From the NCBI RefSeq assembly GCF_002208135.1, contig NZ_CP021646.1, forward strand, positions 43,501 to 107,500: a stretch of DNA of 64,000 nt, given 5' to 3'. Positions 936 through 11,925 of this stretch are shown in pieces. The position numbers and the translations under genes were made by a program. The notes beneath the pieces were generated by a model. The model had not been told where the DNA came from. It did no database searches and saw only the letters and a program-made list of their open reading frames with translations. Source of the DNA: Pseudoalteromonas piscicida. Lineage in GTDB: Bacteria > Pseudomonadota > Gammaproteobacteria > Enterobacterales > Alteromonadaceae. Every line of letters begins with the position of its first letter. The first letter of the stretch is position 1.

Positions 936-1526
936 ATGACAAAACCTTACTCTCAAGCGTGTGAAAACAATAAACGGCCAATATTAGAAAAGCTCACTCC
1001 CTATCTAAATAAACCGTTGAAAGTGCTAGAGGTAGGCTCTGGTACGGGTCAGCATGCTGTGCACTTTGCTGCGGCGTTACCGCATTTAACGTGGCAGACG
1101 GCGGACAGGGAGATTAATCACGCAGGTATTCAAGCGTGGCTTGATGATGCAGAATTAGAAAATACTTTACCGCCATTGGCGCTAGACTTACACCATGCGT
1201 GGCCTGTTAATCAGCGTTATGATGTGATCTATACCGCTAATACCTTGCACATTGTGTCATCAACGCTCGTTGAGCGCTTAATCGCAGGAGTAGGACGACA
1301 CCTTAAAGAAAGCGGCTACCTGATAGTTTATGGGCCGTTTAATTATCAAGGTGAATTTACGAGCGAGAGTAACCGAGAGTTTGATGCGTATTTAAAATCG
1401 CAAGACAAAGAGAGTGGCATTCGCGATCAAGAATGGGTATTGGCGCTTGCAGCAGAGCAAGGACTTACACTACAGCAAGACTATGCGATGCCGGCTAATA
1501 ATCGCTTATTGGTGTTTAAACGGTAA
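936..1526 (+). CDS. DUF938-family SAM-dependent methyltransferase
   Basis: A 196-residue soluble class I methyltransferase. Motif I is VLEVGSGTG (residues 30-38). The acidic residue of motif II follows near D57, and the post-III segment DVIYTANTLHI lies at about 96-106. A conserved YGPFNY follows at about 132. The layout, length and N-terminus (ACENNKRPILE) fit the DUF938 family, whose substrate is not established. Its last 21 bases overlap the end of the convergent acyltransferase gene. The SAM-binding fold is clear; the substrate cannot be told. Confidence 0.85.
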   Translation: MTKPYSQACENNKRPILEKLTPYLNKPLKVLEVGSGTGQHAVHFAAALPHLTWQTADREINHAGIQAWLDDAELENTLPPLALDLHHAWPVNQRYDVIYTANTLHIVSSTLVERLIAGVGRHLKESGYLIVYGPFNYQGEFTSESNREFDAYLKSQDKESGIRDQEWVLALAAEQGLTLQQDYAMPANNRLLVFKR

Positions 1527-2636
1527 TTTTGCTTGGCACTCGGTAAAGTAATGCTCGAGTGCGTCAGCTTCGCGCTTGGTAAAATCCTCAAGCGCTTGTT
1601 GAAAGTCAGGTTGAAATAAGCGGTGATACGATTGCCTCCACACCGGCTCAAAACCCCTCACTAACTTGTGCTCGCCTTGAGCACCCGCGTCAAAGACAGC
1701 AAGCTGATTAGCAATGGCGTACTCTATGCCTTGATAGTAACACAGCTCAAAATGCAAAAAGTCGTAACTATCCTCAATTGCGCCCCAATAGCGACCATAC
1801 AAGGTATCGCCATCCACAAGATATAAACTGGTGGCGATAATTTCGTGGTTTAAGTAAGCGCAGCAAAGACGAAGCTTATCTGGCATCGAGGTGATAACTT
1901 GCTGAAAAAAATCGCGAGAGAGATAGCCGTGGTGTCGCGAACGTTTAAGGTAGGTGAGTTGGTAGCTGAGAAAAAACGCATCAAGTTGTACTGTGCTTAT
2001 TTCTCTGCCAACAGTCCAGCTTATGTTAATACCTTGGGCAATCACAGCTTGGCGCTCTTTCACGACCATTTTACGCTTTCTTGATGTGAGTTGTGCGAGA
2101 AAATCATCGAACTCGGCGTAACCTTGATTATGCCAATGAAATTGCACATTGCGGCGCATCGTTAAATGACTCTGAACGAGGAAGTCGCTTTCACGACAAA
2201 AGTTAATATGGACTCCACTAATGCCCAGTTGGGCGAGGCTCGTGAGCGTGGTGTCAATATATTCAAGCAAGCAAGAAGACAGTCGTTTAGTTAATATTCT
2301 TGGCCCTTGAGTTGGCGTAAAGGGGACACCACACAGCCATTTAGGATAGTAATCTAATCCGTGGCGCTCGTAGGCTTCAGCAAAAGCCCAATCAAAAACG
2401 TACTCGCCATAAGAGTGCGATTTAATATAGCCTGGCAAAATTGCAATCAACTCGCCTTGGCGTTCAATCATTAGGTGATGAGGTATCCAACCAGTCTCTT
2501 TGCTGGTGCAGCCGCTCAACTCTAATGCAAGCAGCCAAGCGTAGCTCGTAAATACATGTGATGGTGAAACACAGTCCCACTGTGCTTCTGTCACTTCAGT
2601 CAGAGAATGGATAAACCTGTGTTGGTACTCAGTCAT
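1506..2636 (-). CDS. FemAB/GNAT-type acyltransferase-like protein (DUF482/COG3146)
   Basis: A protein of about 376 residues resembling the DUF482 (peptidogalycan biosynthesis-like) family: an N-terminal FIHSLTEV segment, a central substrate-loop region, and a C-terminal GNAT-like half with the characteristic AGAQGEHKLVRGFEP stretch. Such proteins are thought to transfer acyl or aminoacyl groups, but the substrate is unknown. The frame is open further upstream, but the ATG at 2636 gives the family-like N-terminus MTEYQHRFIHS. It overlaps the last 8 bases of the upstream hydrolase gene, which implies translational coupling. Its 3' end overlaps the convergent methyltransferase. Confidence 0.8.
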   Translation of the reverse strand: MTEYQHRFIHSLTEVTEAQWDCVSPSHVFTSYAWLLALELSGCTSKETGWIPHHLMIERQGELIAILPGYIKSHSYGEYVFDWAFAEAYERHGLDYYPKWLCGVPFTPTQGPRILTKRLSSCLLEYIDTTLTSLAQLGISGVHINFCRESDFLVQSHLTMRRNVQFHWHNQGYAEFDDFLAQLTSRKRKMVVKERQAVIAQGINISWTVGREISTVQLDAFFLSYQLTYLKRSRHHGYLSRDFFQQVITSMPDKLRLCCAYLNHEIIATSLYLVDGDTLYGRYWGAIEDSYDFLHFELCYYQGIEYAIANQLAVFDAGAQGEHKLVRGFEPVWRQSYHRLFQPDFQQALEDFTKREADALEHYFTECQAKLPFKHQ

Positions 2637-3903
2637 TGTGGCCGTCAAAAAATGCGAGCAGTGCTTGCTCAAAGTTGCTGTAATCAGGGTTAAACGTGAT
2701 CCGTGCAAGAGCAGTGTATTGCGTCATGCTTTTCTCGTGACGCTCGCCAAAATGGACGGTTTTACCTGTGCGGCAGTTAATGAAGGCTTGGTCTTCTAAG
2801 TGGTAACTGGTGCAATTACGATAAGGCCCTTTGCGGCCATAAAAAATATGTTCAGATGGCTGCAAAATACCAATATGAGACATATCGACAATGTTGTCGG
2901 CTTTCACGCTCCGATAATTCACACCTTGCTTAGCCAATGGCGTTTCCGAGTAGATAAATAGTGTCAATGTTGACTTAGGTTGCCACTTTTCTAGCAGCTT
3001 TGCCGTTGCATGATTATCTATGGTGGTATCGACATCGCTATAGCTGATAAACATAGGTACATCTGGCAAAGTGGTGAGTGATTTGAGTGGCGCCATAGCC
3101 TGATGGGCTAACGTTGCGCCATGCCATGGAAAAGATTCATATTTGGCGAAATCCAAATCTGCGTCTTCATCTATCCAGTTGACAAATGGCACGTAATCAA
3201 TCCATTTGGCTAGCCAACCGTTCTTATTATGTGGCTCCGTGGCGGGTGAGATAAGTGCAACAGAGTCTAAATTATTGGGCTTGTGCTTCGCTATGCTACT
3301 CAGCATCAAGGCGGCACCCGTGGAGTAACCAAGTACGGAAAAATGCTTAAAATCTTGGCTCGTCTGTGCGATGGCATAATCCGTATGGGTTTGCCAATCG
3401 TCAATATCAACTTCGGCTAAATCGCTAGGTGCAGTCGCGTGGCCTGGTAGTAACATGGTTCTGACATTGTATCCTGCTTCATAGAGCGCTGCCGCAAGGT
3501 AGTGATAAGTAAAAGGAGAATCGGTCAGACCATGGATAAGTAAAATGGCGTGATCTTTGTTGTCATGCTCAAGTGAAAAGGGCGCGATTAAGTCGCTTAC
3601 TTTGGGGGTTGTCAGGTTGAGTAATTTTGCAGTGGGCGTCATTAACGGGCACGGCAGTGTAGCGCGGGGATTACGGCTTTCAATAATTTGCTTAGTCGAA
3701 CGAATATAATCGTTATAGTTTTTTATATTCGCTATATCGACGGTGACAGGGCCTTTATCGATCGCTTCGCGAAATAATCCCGACGCTTTGCTCTTGGTGA
3801 ATAGCGACATATCACTCACTTGGGTAACACAGTCTTGTGCGATGACCAAAGGTGAGCCAAGCAGGCTAAAAGCAAATACTGTGGAGGTAAGGTAGTGGCG
3901 CAT
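2629..3903 (-). CDS. Secreted alpha/beta hydrolase (serine esterase/lysophospholipase-like)
   Basis: A 424-residue protein with a signal peptide (about residues 1-22, ending VIAQ/D). An alpha/beta-hydrolase fold follows: oxyanion HG at 124-125, nucleophile elbow GYSTG with S194, a likely acid in SYSDVDTT near 299, and a likely His in MSHIG near 353. The family hydrolyses ester or acyl bonds, and the export signal places it in the periplasm or outside the cell. AAGGA lies 6-7 bases before the ATG. It is the first gene of a two-gene unit with the acyltransferase-like gene. The exact substrate is unknown. Confidence 0.85.
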   Translation of the reverse strand: MRHYLTSTVFAFSLLGSPLVIAQDCVTQVSDMSLFTKSKASGLFREAIDKGPVTVDIANIKNYNDYIRSTKQIIESRNPRATLPCPLMTPTAKLLNLTTPKVSDLIAPFSLEHDNKDHAILLIHGLTDSPFTYHYLAAALYEAGYNVRTMLLPGHATAPSDLAEVDIDDWQTHTDYAIAQTSQDFKHFSVLGYSTGAALMLSSIAKHKPNNLDSVALISPATEPHNKNGWLAKWIDYVPFVNWIDEDADLDFAKYESFPWHGATLAHQAMAPLKSLTTLPDVPMFISYSDVDTTIDNHATAKLLEKWQPKSTLTLFIYSETPLAKQGVNYRSVKADNIVDMSHIGILQPSEHIFYGRKGPYRNCTSYHLEDQAFINCRTGKTVHFGERHEKSMTQYTALARITFNPDYSNFEQALLAFFDGHND

Positions 3904-3966
3904 AGTCGGTCCTTATGAGCATAAAATCACATGCAGTATAGCGAGAACAGGTGACGATAAAAATGG

Positions 3967-4434
3967 TTAGCGGATCGGTAATATGCGTTTCGCAAAAGTT
4001 TGCTTGAGGACAATCGTTGATTCAATCCCGCTAATCACCTTACAGGCGCCCAGTTGATGTTTGACAAATTGTTCATAGCTGGGCAAATCCTTTGCTACGA
4101 TTTCCAATAGGTAATCATGACTTCCAGAGATCACCGAACAGCTGATCACCTGATCTTCAGATTCCACGTGTTGTTCAAATAAATGCGCTGCGGTTGCGGT
4201 ATTTTCGCTGAGTTTTATAAATGCATAAACCAAAATACTTAGGTCAACTTGCGCTCTATCCAGTGCCGCATGATAGCCTGAAATTACTCCTGTATCTTGC
4301 AAGCGTTTTACGCGTCGAAGACAGGGAGTATCGGAAAGGTTTGCCTTTTCGGCGAGTGAGGCATTACTCAAACGTGCATTATGCTGCAAGGAGTTAAGGA
4401 GCAATTTGTCCTTGGCATCTAGATTTACCGACAT
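3967..4434 (-). CDS. Lrp/AsnC-family transcriptional regulator, divergent from the DUF1864/kynureninase-like pair
   Basis: A 155-residue one-domain-pair regulator. The N-terminal winged helix (about 5-50: LDAKDKLLLNSLQ then LSDTPCLRRVKRLQ) is followed by a C-terminal RAM ligand-binding domain. The ATG at 4434 gives the usual MSVNLDAKD-type start; the longer open frame upstream is rejected because it crosses the promoter region. Lrp-family proteins bind amino acids and control adjacent divergent genes. KynR of Pseudomonas, an Lrp/AsnC member, controls the kynurenine genes, so this regulator may respond to tryptophan or a derivative here. That link is inference from position. Confidence 0.85.
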   Translation of the reverse strand: MSVNLDAKDKLLLNSLQHNARLSNASLAEKANLSDTPCLRRVKRLQDTGVISGYHAALDRAQVDLSILVYAFIKLSENTATAAHLFEQHVESEDQVISCSVISGSHDYLLEIVAKDLPSYEQFVKHQLGACKVISGIESTIVLKQTFAKRILPIR

Positions 4435-4550
4435 AAACCAAATAAAAGAGTGATTCTTGCTAATCAGTATTAAACTTTTAGAGAAAATTGGCAAATTATG
4501 CTCGTGGTGATTTGCTAGCCTTAACTGTGGAATAATCACGAGAAGTAATA
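4435..4550. promoter_or_regulatory. Divergent promoter region with repeated GTGATT/AATCAC half sites
   Basis: GTGATT occurs at 4450-4455 and 4507-4512, and its inverse AATCAC at 4534-4539. The longer CTCGTG (4501-4506) pairs with CACGAG (4537-4542). These could be binding sites for the adjacent Lrp-type regulator. The operator assignment is tentative. Confidence 0.35.
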
Positions 4551-5738
4551 ATGAGTCCATTAGCCGTACAATTTGACGCTTGGATTAGAGGTCCGTTTGT
4601 GGACCTTAACGACAAGCTTGAACATCTTTATTGGCAGCAACAGGATAAAGCAAACGTTGAAGGCGTTGGTGAAACGCTAAAAGCACAGTTATTAGAAGAA
4701 GGTAATCAACTGATCCAAGCCTTGCTAGAAGAAGGTAATACCGACGAAGGCTTTGAGCAAGCATTCGACTTACTCGGTAACGTTGGTCTATTTATGGCTG
4801 CATGCAGACGCCACGAAATTACCGAGCCAAGCCGTGAAAGGGTGTCTCCACTAACACAAGCATCGGCACTGGCTATGCACATCGGTGCCTCTTTGGGAGT
4901 TACGCCGCGCTTCGCAACGGCTCATCTCACCACACACAACCGGGCAATCAACGGCGTGTATAAGCGCTTTACCTCTCATCCGGCAGAGCGCTTATTCATC
5001 GACTACAATACTCAGGCCATTCTTGCCTATAAACGAGCATCCGAATCGCTAATGAAGGTACATCATTTGGGAATTTCCCATCCCATGTCATTGGTGCTAC
5101 TCAAACAAGTTAAGCAAGCGCTGCTTGAGGTGATAGAGTCTAATCGAGAGTTATTTAAGGAACTGGATACCGAGGCATTCTTTTACGTTGTACGACCCTA
5201 TTACAAACCTTACCGAGTTGGTAAAGAGGTCTATCGTGGTGCAAACGCTGGAGATTTTGCGGGTATCAATGTTATCGATATGATGTTGGGGTTATGCCCG
5301 GCTAATGACATTAGTTACGGTCAAATGCTGGTGGAAAAATTCCTCTATATGATGCCAGAAGACCAAGCAACCCTGCGTGAATGCATGCGTACGCCTAATT
5401 TAATGGATGCGTTTCTGAGTGCATTGAAAGGGCCGAAAAGTGATTGGTTCGGCCCTGCCTGTAGCTTGTTTATACAAGTGTGTAAGCTGCATGGAGATAC
5501 GGCCATACAACATCACAATCAACTCGTCGAAAAGTATATCGCCAAACCTTCGCAGGCAATGCAGCAACAGCACTTAAGCAAAGTGACCGCCAGTGGTCCA
5601 CCGATTGAAGTCTTACTCAAAGAACTCGCAGACTTAAGAGATAGACGAGCAGCTGCCGAGCGCGCTGATATCTTTACTCGGCATCATGACTTAAAACGAC
5701 TACGCCAAGCAATAGGGGTTAAGCATGAAGCAATATAG
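4551..5738 (+). CDS. DUF1864/PrnB-like protein of the heme-dependent dioxygenase (IDO/TDO) superfamily
   Basis: A 395-residue soluble helical protein resembling PF08933 (DUF1864), the family of PrnB of pyrrolnitrin synthesis. Several segments line up by eye with indoleamine 2,3-dioxygenase. FFYVVRPYYKPYRVG (210-224) followed by VYRG and DFAGINVIDMMLG resembles the IDO FF-LR-Y...VYEG...FAGGSAGQSS...D-LLG region. HHNQLVEKYI (321-330) sits where the proximal heme His is found. TASGPPIEVLLKEL (346-359) replaces the GTGG-D-MPFLK loop of IDO. I therefore predict a heme protein acting on tryptophan or a related indole. Its end overlaps the kynureninase-like gene by 14 bases, so both are one operon. 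The reaction is not established. Confidence 0.8.
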   Translation: MSPLAVQFDAWIRGPFVDLNDKLEHLYWQQQDKANVEGVGETLKAQLLEEGNQLIQALLEEGNTDEGFEQAFDLLGNVGLFMAACRRHEITEPSRERVSPLTQASALAMHIGASLGVTPRFATAHLTTHNRAINGVYKRFTSHPAERLFIDYNTQAILAYKRASESLMKVHHLGISHPMSLVLLKQVKQALLEVIESNRELFKELDTEAFFYVVRPYYKPYRVGKEVYRGANAGDFAGINVIDMMLGLCPANDISYGQMLVEKFLYMMPEDQATLRECMRTPNLMDAFLSALKGPKSDWFGPACSLFIQVCKLHGDTAIQHHNQLVEKYIAKPSQAMQQQHLSKVTASGPPIEVLLKELADLRDRRAAAERADIFTRHHDLKRLRQAIGVKHEAI

Positions 5739-6837
5739 GGATGATTTTCACCTGCCTACGGGTCACTATTTATTGAGTCATTCCGTTGGTCGTGTGTTGA
5801 AATCTGCGGCGGAAGATTTTCATCAGCAATTTATGGTGCCGTGGCAACAACAAAATCAAGAGCCTTGGCAGCAGTGGCTAAGTGGAATTGATCGCTTTAC
5901 CTCAGCCCTAGCTTCCCTATTACACACCGATGCGCGCCTGTTTTGTCCGCAAACAAACCTTTCCAGTGGTTTAACGAAATGGGCGATGAGTTTGCCCGAA
6001 AGTGGCATTCGTAAAGTACGTGTATTGATGAGTGAGCAAGACTTCCCCAGCATGGGGTTTGCGTTACAAAACGCGCTGGACAATATTGAGATTGTCTATG
6101 TTCCCGAAGCGATGAATATGCACGACCTAAGTGTGTGGCAGCAATATATTGACGAGCAAATTGACTGGGTATTTGTCAGTCATGTGTATTCGAACAGCGG
6201 TCGGCAGGCGCCTGTCGCTGACATCATTAGCCTTGCTAACCAATATGGCTGTCGAAGCATTATTGATATTGCTCAGTCACTTAGTGTATTACCAATAAAT
6301 TTAAGCGAGTGGGGCGCGGATTGCGTTATCGGCTCTTGTGTGAAATGGAGCTGCGGTGGCCCTGGCGCCGGTTTTATTTGGGTGAATGAAGATGTCTTGC
6401 CTTATTGCGAGCCAAAAGATGTTGGCTGGTTTTCGCATCAAAATCCATTCGAGTTTGATATTCATCATTTTGCGCTGAGTGAAAGTGCGCTGCGTTTTTG
6501 GGGCGGTACACCAAGTGTGGCACCTTATATCTATGCGGGGCACAGCCTTGGCTATTTTGCCGAGCTTGGGATTGAGCAAGTAAGAGCGCACAACTTTGCT
6601 TTGTTATCTGAGTTACAAGCGGCATTGCCTGAATTTTATCGCTCTCCTACAGCACAGAGTGCTTGCTCGGGGACAGCTATTTTGCATTTTGGCTCGCGGC
6701 ATGAGTCAGTGATGGAGCAGCTTAAGCGAGCAGGCATTGCTGTGGATAATCGTCGCTACGGTATTCGTGTCTCACCACATATTTATAATAGTCAGGAGGA
6801 CATCGCGCAGTTGGTGCAGGTTATCAACGAAAGCTAG
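5725..6837 (+). CDS. Kynureninase-like class V aminotransferase-fold PLP enzyme
   Basis: A 370-residue fold-type I PLP enzyme. The Schiff-base lysine is K207 in SCVKWSCGGPGAG. D181 (IIDIAQSL) would hold the pyridine nitrogen. The motif GWFSH (234-238) followed by F-FD matches the GW-GH...F signature of kynureninases, which split kynurenine to anthranilate plus alanine. It is shorter than typical kynureninases (about 410-460 residues). It overlaps the DUF1864 gene and faces an Lrp-type regulator, suggesting a tryptophan or indole breakdown pair. A cysteine-lyase or desulfurase-like role is possible; the sequence alone does not decide the substrate. Confidence 0.8.
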   Translation: MKQYRDDFHLPTGHYLLSHSVGRVLKSAAEDFHQQFMVPWQQQNQEPWQQWLSGIDRFTSALASLLHTDARLFCPQTNLSSGLTKWAMSLPESGIRKVRVLMSEQDFPSMGFALQNALDNIEIVYVPEAMNMHDLSVWQQYIDEQIDWVFVSHVYSNSGRQAPVADIISLANQYGCRSIIDIAQSLSVLPINLSEWGADCVIGSCVKWSCGGPGAGFIWVNEDVLPYCEPKDVGWFSHQNPFEFDIHHFALSESALRFWGGTPSVAPYIYAGHSLGYFAELGIEQVRAHNFALLSELQAALPEFYRSPTAQSACSGTAILHFGSRHESVMEQLKRAGIAVDNRRYGIRVSPHIYNSQEDIAQLVQVINES

Positions 6838-7583
6838 TTTCCTAATCCTAGTGCTTTTTTGGTCTTCTTCTTCACCGAGCGCCAATGTGTCATTGGCTGC
6901 TTGGGCGCGCGCGCTATCAATGCGTTGAAATCAATTTCTTCTGCAAGTACCTCTCCTTGATGCGCCAAGAGCACGGAGTTGGGTTGTAGTGCCTTTACTT
7001 TGGCAAGAGATTGGCGATACAAGCGTGGATAGAATACCGGAAAAGGCGCAACAAATTGCCCTTTCACTTTTACCGTCAAATCCGCCACATAGATGCGCTT
7101 ACTGGGGAGATGATACAAGCTCAAATCTCTATCCGTATGACCGGGTGTGTGTATCGCTTGCCATTCGTTAAAGTGGGGCAAGCTATCACCATCGGCTAGG
7201 TAAAAGTCTGGTGATAATTGTCTTGAGTACCAAAGATTGCGTTTGGCCTTGCGCTTTCTCCCTGCAACCCAAAGTGCCAGTGCCATATCGGAGAGGTGCA
7301 TCATGACCCCATCAATACCACGATACCACTGACTGGGGGCATTTGCGGCCGCAATCTTTGCGCCCGTGAGTTTTTTGAGTTTGTGCGCGCCACCGGCATG
7401 ATCTGGGTGCATATGCGTGACCACAATCAGCTTGAGTGCGCTTAGTGGCTTTTGCAGTTGTTGGATGTAGTTGCAGACCAACTCAACATCGGCACGACAG
7501 CAACCATCGAGTAACAGCAGGCCCGTTTCGTGTTCAACCAGATAAATATGTTGAATATAGCCTTCTAAGACATGGATTTTCAT
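6834..7583 (-). CDS. Metallo-beta-lactamase-fold hydrolase
   Basis: A 249-residue cytoplasmic protein with the full set of zinc-binding motifs: H57-x-H59-x-D61-H62 (THMHPDHAGG), H149 (HTPGHT), D168 (VADL) and H208 (AHQGE). The fold acts on thioesters, lactones or other esters, and this family is broad. The C-terminus is Lys-rich (VKKKTKKALG). There is no signal peptide. The gene converges on the kynureninase-like gene and shares 4 bases with its stop. The enzyme class is clear but the substrate is not. Confidence 0.85.
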   Translation of the reverse strand: MKIHVLEGYIQHIYLVEHETGLLLLDGCCRADVELVCNYIQQLQKPLSALKLIVVTHMHPDHAGGAHKLKKLTGAKIAAANAPSQWYRGIDGVMMHLSDMALALWVAGRKRKAKRNLWYSRQLSPDFYLADGDSLPHFNEWQAIHTPGHTDRDLSLYHLPSKRIYVADLTVKVKGQFVAPFPVFYPRLYRQSLAKVKALQPNSVLLAHQGEVLAEEIDFNALIARAPKQPMTHWRSVKKKTKKALGLGN

Positions 7584-7673
7584 TAGTCACACTCATTTCC
7601 CCAATCAGATCTCAACATAGCATAGGTTAAAGACATCTGACCAGTTGTGTGTGGAAGTGATAAATTGCAGACA

Positions 7674-7698
7674 TAAAAAAACCGCAATTAAGCGGTTT
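7674..7698 (-). terminator. Rho-independent terminator after the tRNA-Ser genes
   Basis: On the minus strand a 7-bp stem (AAACCGC paired with GCGGTTT, loop of 6) is followed at once by seven Ts. It lies just after the two serine tRNA genes and would end their transcript. Confidence 0.85.
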
Positions 7699-7710
7699 GT
7701 TTATAAGTGA

Positions 7711-7803
7711 TGGCGGAGAAGGAGGGATTCGAACCCTCGATAGGGCTACAAACCCTATACTCCCTTAGCAGGGGAGCGCCTTCAGCCACTCGGCCACCTC
7801 TCC
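7711..7803 (-). tRNA. tRNA-Ser (anticodon GCT)
   Basis: A 93-base serine tRNA with the long variable arm. The anticodon stem CTCCC/GGGAG encloses CTGCTAA, giving anticodon GCT (codons AGC/AGU). The acceptor stem GGAGAGG/CCTTCTCC region and GTTCGAATC T-loop are clear, and CCA is encoded. Downstream of tRNA-Ser(TGA) on the same strand, likely one transcript. Confidence 0.97.
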
Positions 7804-7821
7804 AGCGCAATACTTTAAAAA

Positions 7822-7912
7822 TGGCGGAGAGATAGGGATTTGAACCCTAGATACGCTATTAACGTATGCCGGTTTTCAAGACCGGTGCTTTCAACCACTC
7901 AGCCATCTCTCC
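7822..7912 (-). tRNA. tRNA-Ser (anticodon TGA)
   Basis: A 91-base serine tRNA with a long variable arm. Stem CCGGT/ACCGG encloses CTTGAAA, giving anticodon TGA (UCA codons). T-loop GTTCAAATC and an encoded CCA are present. It is 18 bases upstream of tRNA-Ser(GCT) and probably cotranscribed with it. Confidence 0.97.
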
Positions 7913-8098
7913 ATGGGCAAAGATAATACTTAGCGATTTAGGCGCTGTAAACCGTTTTTAAACTGTTTGCTTAAAAAATGTGCTAAAAGTGAGGTTTTTT
8001 TAAAATTGTGCTAGAAATTAGCGGTTTGACGAAGAGGTTTTGTACAAAAATGCTGGTTGAAGTGGTGCTTTTATGGTCTATTGAAACAAATGCTGACG

Positions 8099-8128
8099 AG
8101 AGCATGGCGGGTTGGGACGCCATGCTCT
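8099..8128. terminator. Perfect 11-bp stem-loop just after the 48-residue ORF
   Basis: Bases 8099-8109 pair perfectly with 8118-8128 around an 8-base loop. The stem begins 8 bases past the stop of the small minus-strand ORF. There is no T run, so this could be a Rho-type 3' end or an RNA-stabilising hairpin. Confidence 0.45.
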
Positions 8129-8136
8129 GTGCAGAC

Positions 8137-8283
8137 TTACTTATACATAATCACGTCTTTTAACGCTAAGTGTTGACCACATACTGCCAACCACTTCGTC
8201 CAATTGATACGACGTTGTTTAGTTGGTTGTGTTTGGTTAAACGTGTTTTGTGATGGGCTGCAAGGTGCAGCTGAATTAAGCAT
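8137..8283 (-). CDS. Small protein of 48 residues, function unknown
   Basis: A short ORF starting MLNSAAPCSPSQNTF and ending ALKDVIMYK. It has a strong AGGAG ribosome site 6 bases before the ATG and a perfect stem-loop just after the stop, which together support a real gene. The N-terminal half is polar, with many Ser, Gln and Thr. The C-terminal half has a basic stretch (KQRRINWTKW) and a Cys. There is no membrane segment. It stands alone between the tRNA-Ser genes and the lipid kinase. I do not recognise it. Confidence 0.5.
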   Translation of the reverse strand: MLNSAAPCSPSQNTFNQTQPTKQRRINWTKWLAVCGQHLALKDVIMYK

Positions 8284-8568
8284 GTCTGGCTCCTAATAAG
8301 CAATGATTGAAAACAAGGCTATTTTGCACGCAATCTGTTTAAATTTAAAACGATAAAAATTGATGTTTTCGGATAAAAATAACTAATGAATTAATGGTTT
8401 ATTCATTTTTGTTTTAATGGATTTTTTGCATGTTTATGCATGACTTTGATTGTCTTGGTTAGGCTGTAACCCAATTAATATGGGTGTTTGTGGTTTTTGT
8501 TTTTGATTTTTGGTTTTAGTTTTGGTTTTTTATTCATATAAGTTGAGTTTTTGTATTTAAGGGTTTTT
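8284..8568. other. AT-rich intergenic region with a cytosine-free G/T tract
   Basis: No gene is visible. From about 8473 to 8534 the plus strand lacks C entirely and is almost all T and G in TTTTTG-like runs, just before the lipid kinase ribosome site. Promoters for the kinase and the divergent 48-residue ORF must lie here, but I cannot place them with confidence. Confidence 0.5.
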
Positions 8569-9411
8569 ATGCTGGTGGTAGTCAACCCTTTAGCGGGTGC
8601 TGAGGGGAAAGCGCAAATTGCATGGTTAAAGCAACAATTAACACAACAACAGTTGACGGCAACTTGGTTTAATACCACTGGAAACTTTGTCGCAGATAGG
8701 GACGCAATTGCTCAAGCTGCTACGGCGGGAGTTAGCGTGGTGGTGATTGGGGGGGATGGCACGTTGCATCTAGTCGCCAATGCCATTGCTGAGCGGGATA
8801 ACACGCTTGCGTTGCTGCCTGCGGGGACTGGCAACGATTTTGCTCGGCAGTTTAATTATTCCAAAGCACAGTGGCGAGCAGCTGTATTTTCAGATCAGGT
8901 CACAACTATTGATTTGGGTAAAGTGGACGGGCGCTGGTTTGTCAATGTTGCTGGGATTGGCTTTAACGCGCATGTCATGAATAACTTAGGACAAACCAAA
9001 CGCTTAGGAAAGCTGAGCTATATCTATGCGGGATTAATGTCGCTGTTTACTGCACAACTCATTCGCTATCACAGCAAAGCGTGGCCTGAGCAGGGTTTGA
9101 TGTTGTTACTTGCGAATGGCAAACACTTTGGGGCAGGGCTAACTCCCGCTCCTATGGCTTGTCTTGATGACGGTCAGCTGGAGCTGCTGTGGTTCACGCC
9201 GCAAACGCATTGGCAGCGAGTGGTACTGTTTGTCAATCTGCTGCTAAAACGCCATATGGGCACGAGAAATGTGCATCACGCCCGCATTGCAGAGCTTTTT
9301 ATTGCACAAGAGGGGTATGACATTGAAGCTGATGGCGAGATTGTTGGGTGCACGCCTGCGACGATAACCTGCTGCCGCCGAGCTCTGAGCATAAAAAAAG
9401 CGCCATTATAA
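8569..9411 (+). CDS. Diacylglycerol/lipid kinase family protein (YegS/BmrU type)
   Basis: A 280-residue cytoplasmic kinase of the DAGK-catalytic family, which phosphorylates lipid hydroxyls using ATP. Visible motifs are VVVNPLAG near the N-terminus, the nucleotide loop GGDGT (61-65) and LPAGTGNDFAR (83-93). A C-terminal beta domain ends with YDIEADGE. AAGGG sits 6 bases before the ATG at 8569; an in-frame TTG 18 bases upstream is less likely. The stop codon lies in the terminator hairpin shared with the convergent EamA gene. The lipid substrate is not known. Confidence 0.88.
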   Translation: MLVVVNPLAGAEGKAQIAWLKQQLTQQQLTATWFNTTGNFVADRDAIAQAATAGVSVVVIGGDGTLHLVANAIAERDNTLALLPAGTGNDFARQFNYSKAQWRAAVFSDQVTTIDLGKVDGRWFVNVAGIGFNAHVMNNLGQTKRLGKLSYIYAGLMSLFTAQLIRYHSKAWPEQGLMLLLANGKHFGAGLTPAPMACLDDGQLELLWFTPQTHWQRVVLFVNLLLKRHMGTRNVHHARIAELFIAQEGYDIEADGEIVGCTPATITCCRRALSIKKAPL

Positions 9412-9420
9412 AATGGCGCT
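9391..9420 (-). terminator. Terminator of the EamA transporter gene
   Basis: A 9-bp stem (9399-9407 with 9412-9420) and 4-base loop, followed on the minus strand by a T run. It also overlaps the stop of the lipid kinase gene, so it may serve both converging transcripts. Confidence 0.85.
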
Positions 9421-9452
9421 GAAAAGTAAGAAGCTAAAGTATTGGTAAGACT

Positions 9453-10367
9453 TCAACTTCTAACTGGGGACCGAATGAACAACCAAGCGTAGATGCGATC
9501 TAAAGGCGTGAGTACAATCGCATTACCTAGGATGACCAAAATAAACCCAATAAAGGTGTTTTGCTGCCACTCAAAGCCTTCAAATAAGGTGCTCAATACC
9601 ACGGCAACAAAAGGAAATAACACTATCAAATAACTCGCTTTCTCAGGGCCAATATTCTTGAGTAATGAGAAATAACAACCAAAGGCGATGACGGTGCCAA
9701 ACACGCTAAGGTAAATCAGAGACCACCAATATGATGCCGGGGCTTGGTTGATAAACTGATGATCACTAAATGCGACATAAGTAGCTAACATGACAGCGCT
9801 GTAAAGCATGCCCCACGCATTTCCCGCCATAACATCAATTTGCTGGTTGGAATTACGCACGCTCACCATATTGCCGAGTGATGCGACCACTGTTCCTAAT
9901 AGAGCTAATGATAATCCCAAGAAGGCCTTGCTTTGCAAATCAAATGCGACCAAATCGTGCCAAAACAAGCTGACTATCCCAAGCGTGCCCAGTGATGCGC
10001 CAAAGTAAATTCGCTTTGCAATAGGTTTGGCAAAAAACAGCTTAGTGTTGACGATGTTAACGACCAATAATAATGAAAACGCAATCGAGGCCATTGCTGA
10101 CGTTAAATGTGCCTGAGCCCAATATAAGAAGAGATAGTTAGCACCAAAATTACACAGCGCTAAGAGGATAAAAAAGCCGTGATCTCGTCGAGAAAATCGC
10201 ATTGGCACACGCTTATAGATGACAAATGCCCACATACAAACCGCGGCGAGGCCAAAGCGGTAAAACAGCGACACAAACTCGTTGATGCTGCCAAGCTGGT
10301 ATTCAATGGCAAGCCATGTTGATCCCCAGATCAACACTGTGATGGCGTAAAGAAATAGATTTTTCAT
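9453..10367 (-). CDS. EamA/DMT-family inner-membrane transporter
   Basis: A 304-residue very hydrophobic protein with about ten membrane segments in two EamA repeats (IWGSTWLAIEYQ near the start and VFGTVIAFGCYFSLLK in the second half). DMT proteins mostly export amino acids or other metabolites. The ATG at 10367 gives MKNLFLYAITVLIWG; an in-frame TTG 18 bases upstream is less likely. It is divergent from a MocR regulator whose probable operator lies just outside its start, so it is the likely regulated gene. The substrate is unknown. Confidence 0.85.
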   Translation of the reverse strand: MKNLFLYAITVLIWGSTWLAIEYQLGSINEFVSLFYRFGLAAVCMWAFVIYKRVPMRFSRRDHGFFILLALCNFGANYLFLYWAQAHLTSAMASIAFSLLLVVNIVNTKLFFAKPIAKRIYFGASLGTLGIVSLFWHDLVAFDLQSKAFLGLSLALLGTVVASLGNMVSVRNSNQQIDVMAGNAWGMLYSAVMLATYVAFSDHQFINQAPASYWWSLIYLSVFGTVIAFGCYFSLLKNIGPEKASYLIVLFPFVAVVLSTLFEGFEWQQNTFIGFILVILGNAIVLTPLDRIYAWLFIRSPVRS

Positions 10368-10419
10368 GATCGGTTCTAGATTCAAACAGCAGTGGAAGTC
10401 TGTAGTTTACGCTGTTATT

Positions 10420-10463
10420 CTGTATAAGCTATATACAGAATTTACTAATTTATACCTATACAG
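10420..10463. promoter_or_regulatory. Probable MocR operator: CTGTATA palindrome plus third half site
   Basis: CTGTATA (10420-10426) and TATACAG (10432-10438) form a perfect inverted repeat with a 5-base spacer. A second TATACAG occurs at 10457-10463, a direct repeat 25 bp further on. It lies between the divergent EamA and MocR genes, next to the regulator start. An inverted pair plus a direct repeat fits dimeric MocR-type regulators. Confidence 0.65.
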
Positions 10464-10473
10464 ATTATTACTT

Positions 10474-11925
10474 ATGAGTACAGTGATTCGACGCCAACAT
10501 TCCGCCTTTCTCTATCAGCAGGTGATCCAAATGATCTTGTCGATGGCAGAGCAAGAGTCTATTTTACCGGGCGAAAAGCTTCCCTCATTGCGTGTTATGG
10601 CGCAAAACTTAAATGTCAGTATCCCAACGGTAAAGCAGGCTTATCAAGCACTTGAAGATCAAGGAAAAGTGGTTGCCAAAGAGAAGTCCGGCTACTTTTT
10701 ATGCCACAGAGCTTCACACAACGACTCGCCAAAGCGTGCACGATTGCCTGCCAAACCTGTGGTGGTTAACAAGCAGGTGTTGATTGAACAAGTGTATAAA
10801 GGGATCCATCAGCCACATGCCATCCCTTTAGGCATCGCTAACCCTATTGCTATCGCTGGTACAGAGCAGGTTCTTGCCAAAATTATGCGCCGCGCAATGA
10901 AAGAAGCGGGGAATGAGCTCATCAATTATGGTCCTATGGATGGTTTAGATAGCTTAAAAAAGCAAATCGTGCGGCGTTATTTGGATATGGGCTTAGCAAT
11001 AGATATGGACGAAGTGGTGATCACCAATGGCGCGCAAGAAGCACTAGCGATTGCGTTACAAGCGGTGACTAAGCCCGGGGACGTGATAGCGATTGAGTCC
11101 CCCTGTTATTTTGGCATTGTTGAACTGGCTGAAAACTTAGGGTTAAAGGCCATTGAAATACCAGTTTGCCCGGATGATGGCATTTGGCTGAGCGACCTTG
11201 AACGGGCGCTTGAAAAGCATGATATTCGAGCTTGTGTGTTTTCTACCAGTATTAGTAACCCGCTTGGCAGTTTTATGCCAGATACGAGACGTGCGCAGCT
11301 GGTGGCGTTATTAGAGCAACGTGGCGTGGTGTTGATAGAAGACGATGTGTATGGGGATTTATATTTTACCGAGCAGCGTGGCATACCGGCACAAGCATTT
11401 AGCCACAAGGGCTTAGTGATCACATGTGCTTCTTTTTCAAAAACCGCAGCACCGAGCTATCGAGTAGGTTGGATGGTTGCCAGTCAATTTAGTGCAAAAG
11501 CAAAGCGTATAAAACGTGCGTTGAGTTGCTCGTCATCGTTAATGAATCAATGGGCATTGGCGGATTTTCTCAGCTCAGGGGGCTACGAGCGCCACTTAAA
11601 GCTGGTCCGCAAACGGTTAATTGAGAATCGAGATCGCATGATCCAAGCGGTGAATGTTGCATTTGGTCGTGAGGTAAGAGTCAGTCGCCCGCAAGGTGGT
11701 TGTGTACTGTGGTTAGACTTAGGCAAGCAAGTCGATGGTGCCTTGCTATTCCAAAAAGCCTTGGAGCGCGGGATCAGTATTACGCCTGGTACGCTATTTA
11801 GTGCCAGCAAAAAGTATCAAAATTGTATTCGTATCAGTTATGGTTTGCCGTGGGATGATTCGGTAGAGCAAGCGATTAAAACGCTGGGTGAGTTGGCTGA
11901 TGCACAAAGGAAAGGGTTGGCATAA
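10474..11925 (+). CDS. MocR-family regulator (GntR winged helix fused to class I aminotransferase domain)
   Basis: A 483-residue protein. Residues 10-80 form a GntR winged helix (LPGEKLPSLRVMAQNLNVS, then VKQAYQALEDQGKV). The rest is a fold-type I aminotransferase domain with the PLP lysine at K323 (SFSKTAAPSYRVGW). MocR proteins use PLP or a PLP adduct as effector rather than as a catalyst. I chose the ATG at 10474, giving MSTVIRRQHS, because the longer frame would run through the operator. It is divergent from an EamA exporter and likely controls it and itself. The effector is unknown. Confidence 0.9.
   Translation: MSTVIRRQHSAFLYQQVIQMILSMAEQESILPGEKLPSLRVMAQNLNVSIPTVKQAYQALEDQGKVVAKEKSGYFLCHRASHNDSPKRARLPAKPVVVNKQVLIEQVYKGIHQPHAIPLGIANPIAIAGTEQVLAKIMRRAMKEAGNELINYGPMDGLDSLKKQIVRRYLDMGLAIDMDEVVITNGAQEALAIALQAVTKPGDVIAIESPCYFGIVELAENLGLKAIEIPVCPDDGIWLSDLERALEKHDIRACVFSTSISNPLGSFMPDTRRAQLVALLEQRGVVLIEDDVYGDLYFTEQRGIPAQAFSHKGLVITCASFSKTAAPSYRVGWMVASQFSAKAKRIKRALSCSSSLMNQWALADFLSSGGYERHLKLVRKRLIENRDRMIQAVNVAFGREVRVSRPQGGCVLWLDLGKQVDGALLFQKALERGISITPGTLFSASKKYQNCIRISYGLPWDDSVEQAIKTLGELADAQRKGLA

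Follow-up and report, generated by a model that had tools for sequence, protein, structure and literature searches.

We analysed a stretch of 64,000 nucleotides from Pseudoalteromonas piscicida (assembly GCF_002208135.1, 5.3 Mb in two contigs; contig NZ_CP021646.1, positions 43,501 to 107,500), hereafter the window. A sequence-only reading of this DNA had proposed two overlapping genes as an uncharacterised module for tryptophan or indole oxidation. The first gene (4551–5738, plus strand) encodes a PrnB/DUF1864 (PF08933) protein of 395 amino acids with a heme-oxygenase fold, termed here the heme protein. The second (5725–6837, plus strand) encodes a kynureninase-fold, class-V enzyme of 370 amino acids dependent on pyridoxal 5'-phosphate (PLP), termed here the PLP partner. 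The two open reading frames (ORFs) overlap by 14 bases, and an Lrp/AsnC-family regulator of 155 amino acids is encoded divergently from them (3967–4434, minus strand). Since the PF08933 gene was never found in the same surveyed genome as tryptophan dioxygenase (TDO), the operon probably does the job of TDO by a different route.

The heme protein and its PLP partner

Membership of the heme protein in the DUF1864/PrnB family, as claimed from sequence, was confirmed by a match to PF08933 of 626.5 bits against a cut-off of 27, spanning positions 5–386 of 387. The same reading had seen kinship with indoleamine 2,3-dioxygenase (IDO) and a possible proximal heme histidine, and both points were upheld: structural comparison revealed an IDO fold, and in a profile alignment with IDO1, which is weak (E 0.12), F210, F211, R215 and H322 all found counterparts. 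In this weak alignment H322 (codon 5514–5516) falls on the heme-ligand histidine of IDO1. All four residues are invariant in 98/98 sequences, and H322 is a candidate axial heme ligand.

In a structural alignment of 374 residues, the heme protein is 65% identical to Shewanella SO4414 (sequence E ~1e-180). Named Pseudoalteromonas homologues are 66–90% identical, and a P. flavipulchra contig encodes a 100% match. These homologues appear in databases variously as "PrnB family protein", "monodechloroaminopyrrolnitrin synthase PrnB family protein", "DUF1864 family protein" and "indoleamine 2,3-dioxygenase"; a pyrrolnitrin-derived name is probably misleading for them. A search that covered few subscription papers found none on the function of the PF08933/DUF1864 subfamily or of its Shewanella locus (SO4413–SO4415, 1ZEE/2NWB), and searches on kynureninase or tryptophan dioxygenase in the two genera also yielded none. 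PMC6214176 has DUF1864 as an entry in a domain table. The term "uncharacterised" does not hold in full, as the Shewanella ortholog has been solved with bound heme.

The ORF of the PLP partner matches Aminotran_5, and its best single matches in both fold and sequence are kynureninases. The PLP lysine K207 (codon 6343–6345) and the PLP aspartate D181 are present in 96/96 partner sequences. W235 and T262 are also retained, and W51, H238 and G261 are held in common with true kynureninases. R348 aligns with the arginine of the GIRV motif of human kynureninase and is an arginine in 95/96 partners, the remaining one having a gap; in 12 Pseudoalteromonas kynureninase rows this column holds a leucine, and the arginine lies one residue on (LRFGFTP). 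In kynureninase an arginine of this type binds the carboxylate. Against the kynureninase model TIGR01814 the PLP partner scored 79.2 bits, where the cut-off is 246.4, and its SufS score was nearly equal (77.1). The description of the second gene as kynureninase-like therefore stands as to kinship and the two PLP-site residues, but a score below the curated cut-off and altered active-site residues, among them a lost tyrosine and a lost histidine, led us to reject a plain kynureninase label.

Distribution of the gene pair and of TDO

Ninety-eight loci were examined, of which 97 carry a PF08933 gene; the other (L087, a match below cut-off) has none. The 97 include the window's own genome (L001), and some genomes may be duplicated in the set. 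In 96/97 loci a PLP gene comes directly after the heme gene in the same orientation, with ORF ends −98 to +159 bases apart, and 77/97 have a divergent Lrp homologue upstream of the heme gene. For the 80 loci from named records, these counts were 80/80 and 69/80. This subset comprised 49 Pseudoalteromonas, 22 Shewanella, three Thalassotalea and two Veronia loci, and one each from Colwellia, Paraglaciecola, a metagenome-assembled genome (MAG) labelled Thioglobus and an unplaced gammaproteobacterial MAG. Among the 60 largest neighbour clusters of the 80 loci (flanks to 8 kb), no other neighbour crossed genera except for two, which were shared by Shewanella and one Paraglaciecola. Loci compared across genera had no conserved formamidase beside the pair, as the earlier reading had noted for the window. 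Distances between heme proteins correlated with those between PLP proteins (r 0.90 over 96 loci; permuted maximum 0.18) and with those between regulators (r 0.88 over 77 loci), and common ancestry contributes to both correlations. The heme gene and the PLP gene are a conserved unit. Their adjacency in other genomes, which had been left to a survey, proved near-universal in Pseudoalteromonas, Shewanella and relatives, and the pairing was looser in two distant cases. At one locus (L129, genome G527) the PF08933 gene, alone among the 97, has no PLP homologue within the 18 kb checked; its neighbours are a GGDEF/EAL-like gene (assigned by eye) and, on the other side, a long gene of unassigned type.

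The other case is a Novosphingobium megaplasmid (NZ_CP117882.1, L328), which encodes a PF08933 protein of 51% identity. Here an AsnC regulator lies directly upstream of the heme gene on the same strand, and a class-V PLP gene (26% identity, E 1e-21) is found at a distance of ~5.6 kb. The product of the latter scores above cut-off for KYNU_C (36.4 versus 27) and higher for SufS (110 bits) than for kynureninase (76.7), both under cut-off. As read from the sequence, it resembles the window's PLP partner in having a leucine before the PLP lysine, a glutamine and a GGTP motif. The cluster also holds genes for an SNF-family transporter, three amidohydrolases (best model Xaa-Pro dipeptidase, below cut-off), an M20 peptidase, a CDGSH/cupin protein and an indolepyruvate oxidoreductase, whose beta-type subunit scores 633 bits against a cut-off of 348 and whose alpha-type match is below cut-off. 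The heme, regulator, kynureninase-like, transporter and indolepyruvate oxidoreductase genes fall within 19 kb. This independent setting, a single record, fits aromatic amino-acid catabolism.

In evenly drawn genomes, PF08933 was found in 3/274 of the gammaproteobacterial, 5/299 of the same-phylum (four above cut-off) and 15/197 of the same-order samples, with the window's own genome among the matches each time. Within the two main genera, one Shewanella genome holds a PF08933 remnant of 30 positions with stops (G866:C1:412057-412143), and one Pseudoalteromonas genome a PF08933 gene interrupted by a stop (G736:C122:60100-61241). Both are apparent recent losses.

The occurrence of PF08933 was then set against that of TDO (PF03301). 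In 99 Pseudoalteromonas genomes, PF08933 was found in 78 (counting the broken copy) and TDO in 15; in 87 Shewanella genomes, the numbers were 42 (counting the remnant) and 18. The two families were found together in 0/186 genomes (Fisher p 1.6e-18, phylogeny ignored). Absence here means no match in a permissive first pass at its E-value limit, and a divergent TDO or PF08933 could be overlooked, because that pass overlooked the window's own PLP partner, which hmmscan matches to the kynureninase model at 79 bits. To take phylogeny into account, rpoB trees were built with 98/99 Pseudoalteromonas and 80/87 Shewanella genomes, the joint tree having 178 tips. On it PF08933 requires 14 changes, of which starred branches force 12, and TDO requires 10, of which 8 are forced. 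In 12 independent pairs differing in PF08933, TDO changed in the opposite direction in 4.3 on average and never in the same direction. When independent evolution was simulated on the rpoB tree with fitted rates and both frequencies were near those observed, zero overlap arose in 0/709 draws; with TDO fixed it arose in 0/3888, and with PF08933 fixed in 1/7369. One starred clade unites a PF08933 genome (G739) with two genomes that have TDO. These results are good but not final evidence that PF08933 and TDO are functionally redundant or incompatible. The exclusion gives independent support to a role of the pair in tryptophan metabolism, and so strengthens the earlier proposal of a tryptophan/indole oxidation module, whose substrate and products are putative.

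TDO has a neighbour of comparable type. It is followed by a class-V PLP gene in 8/10 Pseudoalteromonas loci (of 15 TDO genomes), where the product has ~391–419 amino acids, likewise at L102 and L103, two further genomes, and in 8/10 Shewanella loci (of 18 TDO genomes), which makes a second two-gene cassette. This TDO partner is 20–24% identical to the window's PLP partner where BLAST aligns them, and four of the eight Pseudoalteromonas TDO partners gave no match at E 1e-5. A Tyr-Lys-Tyr motif and a histidine are retained in 18/18 TDO-partner rows. At two Shewanella loci (L139, L142) TDO is flanked on one side by an FAD monooxygenase gene (PF01494) and on the other by one for a BD-FAE alpha/beta hydrolase, in place of the PLP gene. 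At one Pseudoalteromonas locus (L123), a scan assigned the genes after TDO to a flavin reductase, a luciferase-like monooxygenase, an asparaginase II-type protein and a LysR regulator; another (L124) has the same neighbour clusters after TDO, and the two perhaps represent a different TDO pathway.

A true kynureninase scored above cut-off in 9/99 Pseudoalteromonas genomes, all of them with PF08933 and none with TDO. In the three such loci inspected (L126–L128; genomes G768, G809 and G773) it comes after a hydrolase gene, from the same neighbour cluster each time; the copy scanned, that of L126, is a BD-FAE hydrolase. As a guess, the BD-FAE hydrolases beside kynureninase (L126) and beside TDO (L139, L142) may be formamidases. 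If the L126–L128 hydrolases are formamidases, a source of formylkynurenine would be needed, and of the two oxygenase families surveyed, PF08933 and TDO, PF08933 is the sole candidate seen. The formamidase KynB (TIGR03035) was above cut-off in 0/99 Pseudoalteromonas genomes, with weaker matches in four, KynB being the formamidase family surveyed. Its absence does not discriminate between the two gene sets, because genomes with TDO also lack KynB.

Regulator, intergenic region and flanking gene

The divergent Lrp/AsnC regulator was recognised correctly in the sequence-only reading. An AsnC-type helix-turn-helix (PF13412/PF13404) and a ligand-binding domain (PF01037) all score above cut-off, PF01037 at E 1.5e-15 and PF13412 at E 1.6e-15 for a translation started two codons upstream of the chosen methionine. 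The best start, at 4434 on the minus strand, leaves a gap of 116 bp to the heme gene. This divergent intergenic region (4435–4550) may hold the operator of the Lrp protein. As read from the sequence, it contains two similar stretches, TGATTCTTGCTAATC (4451–4465) and TGATTTGCTAGCC (4508–4520), ~57 bases apart. When 42 Pseudoalteromonas intergenic regions were aligned (the window's 4441–4550 included), conserved columns covered bases in both stretches, the conservation being partial. We regard the two stretches as a candidate Lrp operator. An Lrp consensus had no match in 65 intergenic regions. A promoter consensus scan of 4435–4550 returned one site on the minus strand (4494–4466) and none on the plus strand, a total below that of shuffled sequence.

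Downstream, a gene for a metallo-beta-lactamase-fold protein (PF00753; 6834–7583) converges on the PLP gene, the two overlapping by 4 bases at their ends. The NCBIfam matches listed for this protein are all far under cut-off. This gene lies outside the conserved unit, because homologues occur at just 29/83 loci.

A proposed tryptophan route and its relation to known systems

On present evidence we favour, as rather probable, the reading that the operon is a self-contained cassette of amino-acid catabolism and a stand-in for the TDO cassette. The PF08933 protein would bind heme via H322 and use O2 to oxidise an indole ring, that of L-tryptophan or of a closely related compound; the most likely product is of the N-formylkynurenine type. 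The PLP enzyme would then form an aldimine at K207, hold the carboxylate by R348 and cleave the side chain, perhaps with no deformylation beforehand, to yield alanine and a product of the anthranilate type. Control of the cassette would fall to the divergent Lrp-type protein, as a sensor of the amino acid or its product.

Several observations weigh against a tryptophan route of this kind. The residue before the PLP lysine (V206 in the window, codon 6340–6342) is valine in 92, isoleucine in three and leucine in one of 96 partners, and the position after the PLP aspartate is glutamine in all 96, while these are tyrosine and histidine, respectively, in 12/12 true kynureninases and 18/18 TDO partners. 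With both replaced, the chemistry of the PLP partner may differ from that of kynureninase, and its kynureninase score is barely above that for SufS. The TDO partner is itself no more than distantly kynureninase-like: the two that were scanned reached 24.6 and 26.5 bits for KYNU_C, where the cut-off is 27, and one scanned with NCBIfam reached no family cut-off and matched no kynureninase model. Nine PF08933 genomes have a true kynureninase as well, and in these a PLP partner with kynureninase activity would be superfluous. Neither PF08933 nor TDO was found in 33/186 genomes (six Pseudoalteromonas and 27 Shewanella). The paired sign test for the exclusion, with few informative pairs, was non-significant (median p 0.125), and without frequency restriction 3.6% of 40000 simulations had zero overlap. 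Finally, PrnB, the PF08933 protein that has been characterised, forms a product that is not oxygenated (PMC11791213).

One variant, which we consider possible but doubtful, is a formamidase-free route in which the altered partner, with valine and glutamine for tyrosine and histidine, cleaves the PF08933 product directly to a product other than free anthranilate, the operon being swapped with the TDO cassette as its functional equivalent across marine gammaproteobacteria. It is unlikely, though worth keeping in view, that the same two-step logic serves another substrate (a modified indole or another aromatic amino acid) and that the exclusion of TDO reflects shared ecology, not chemistry. IDO-type enzymes accept several indoles, and the Novosphingobium peptidase and dipeptidase-like amidohydrolases would suit a peptide or derivative; yet the exclusion is complete in two genera, and TDO is likewise paired with a class-V PLP enzyme. 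That last point, together with kynureninases as best single matches and the shared W51, H238, G261 and T262, also makes it improbable that the PLP enzyme acts as a desulfurase, lyase or transaminase in an unrelated or upstream step, in which case the pair would not oxidise and then cleave.

The exclusion could also be a lineage effect, a few clades having lost one gene without functional equivalence. The small number of changes on the 178 tips, the sign test and the unrestricted simulations are in its favour, but frequency-matched simulations almost never gave zero overlap, the exclusion recurs in two genera, and G739 shares its clade with TDO genomes; we give this account a low probability. 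Very improbable, in our judgement, is a PrnB-like ring rearrangement, with the heme protein as a biosynthetic enzyme for an aminophenylpyrrole-type metabolite. No halogenase or Rieske family, as expected of prnA/prnC/prnD-type neighbours, was found in ten proteins scanned (window 936–11925), and the 80 loci had no cross-genus halogenase or Rieske neighbour in their flanks (up to 8 kb; neighbours clustered, not all named), nor other pathway-like neighbours conserved across genera, a statement about loci, not whole genomes. Presence in 78/99 genomes of the genus better suits housekeeping catabolism, and identity to PrnB is 15–18%. On neighbourhood and identity, a PrnB function was rejected for the heme protein.

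If the stand-in reading is true, it would account for how tryptophan may be degraded in most Pseudoalteromonas and in many Shewanella, where TDO is absent. The likeness to the TDO cassette lies in its order, a heme aromatic oxygenase and then a class-V PLP enzyme; the difference is that TDO belongs to another heme enzyme family and that its PLP partner keeps the kynureninase tyrosine and histidine. Compared with kynureninase (TIGR01814; 1qz9), the window's PLP partner differs at three residues by the cofactor: valine and tryptophan each replace a tyrosine, and glutamine replaces a histidine. The heme protein is 14–17% identical to IDO1 and IDO2, a likeness known from fold and sequence, with a sequence match of just E 0.12, and would be one more member of the small group of tryptophan-oxidising heme enzymes. 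SO4414 of Shewanella oneidensis (PDB 1zee and 2nwb, structural-genomics entries) belongs to the same PF08933 subfamily, and its crystal structure 2nwb has ferric heme bound, according to the entry title; a family solved by structural genomics, with 2nwb released in 2006, thereby gains a specific proposed role. PrnB (monodechloroaminopyrrolnitrin synthase) acts on 7-chlorotryptophan in the pyrrolnitrin pathway (PMC11791213). The same paper places PrnB in the IDO/TDO superfamily as a heme enzyme with a histidine ligand and describes its in vitro activity as hard to reconstitute; it mentions neither Shewanella nor SO4414. In the heme protein, PrnB gains a relative that is widespread and may have more tractable chemistry.

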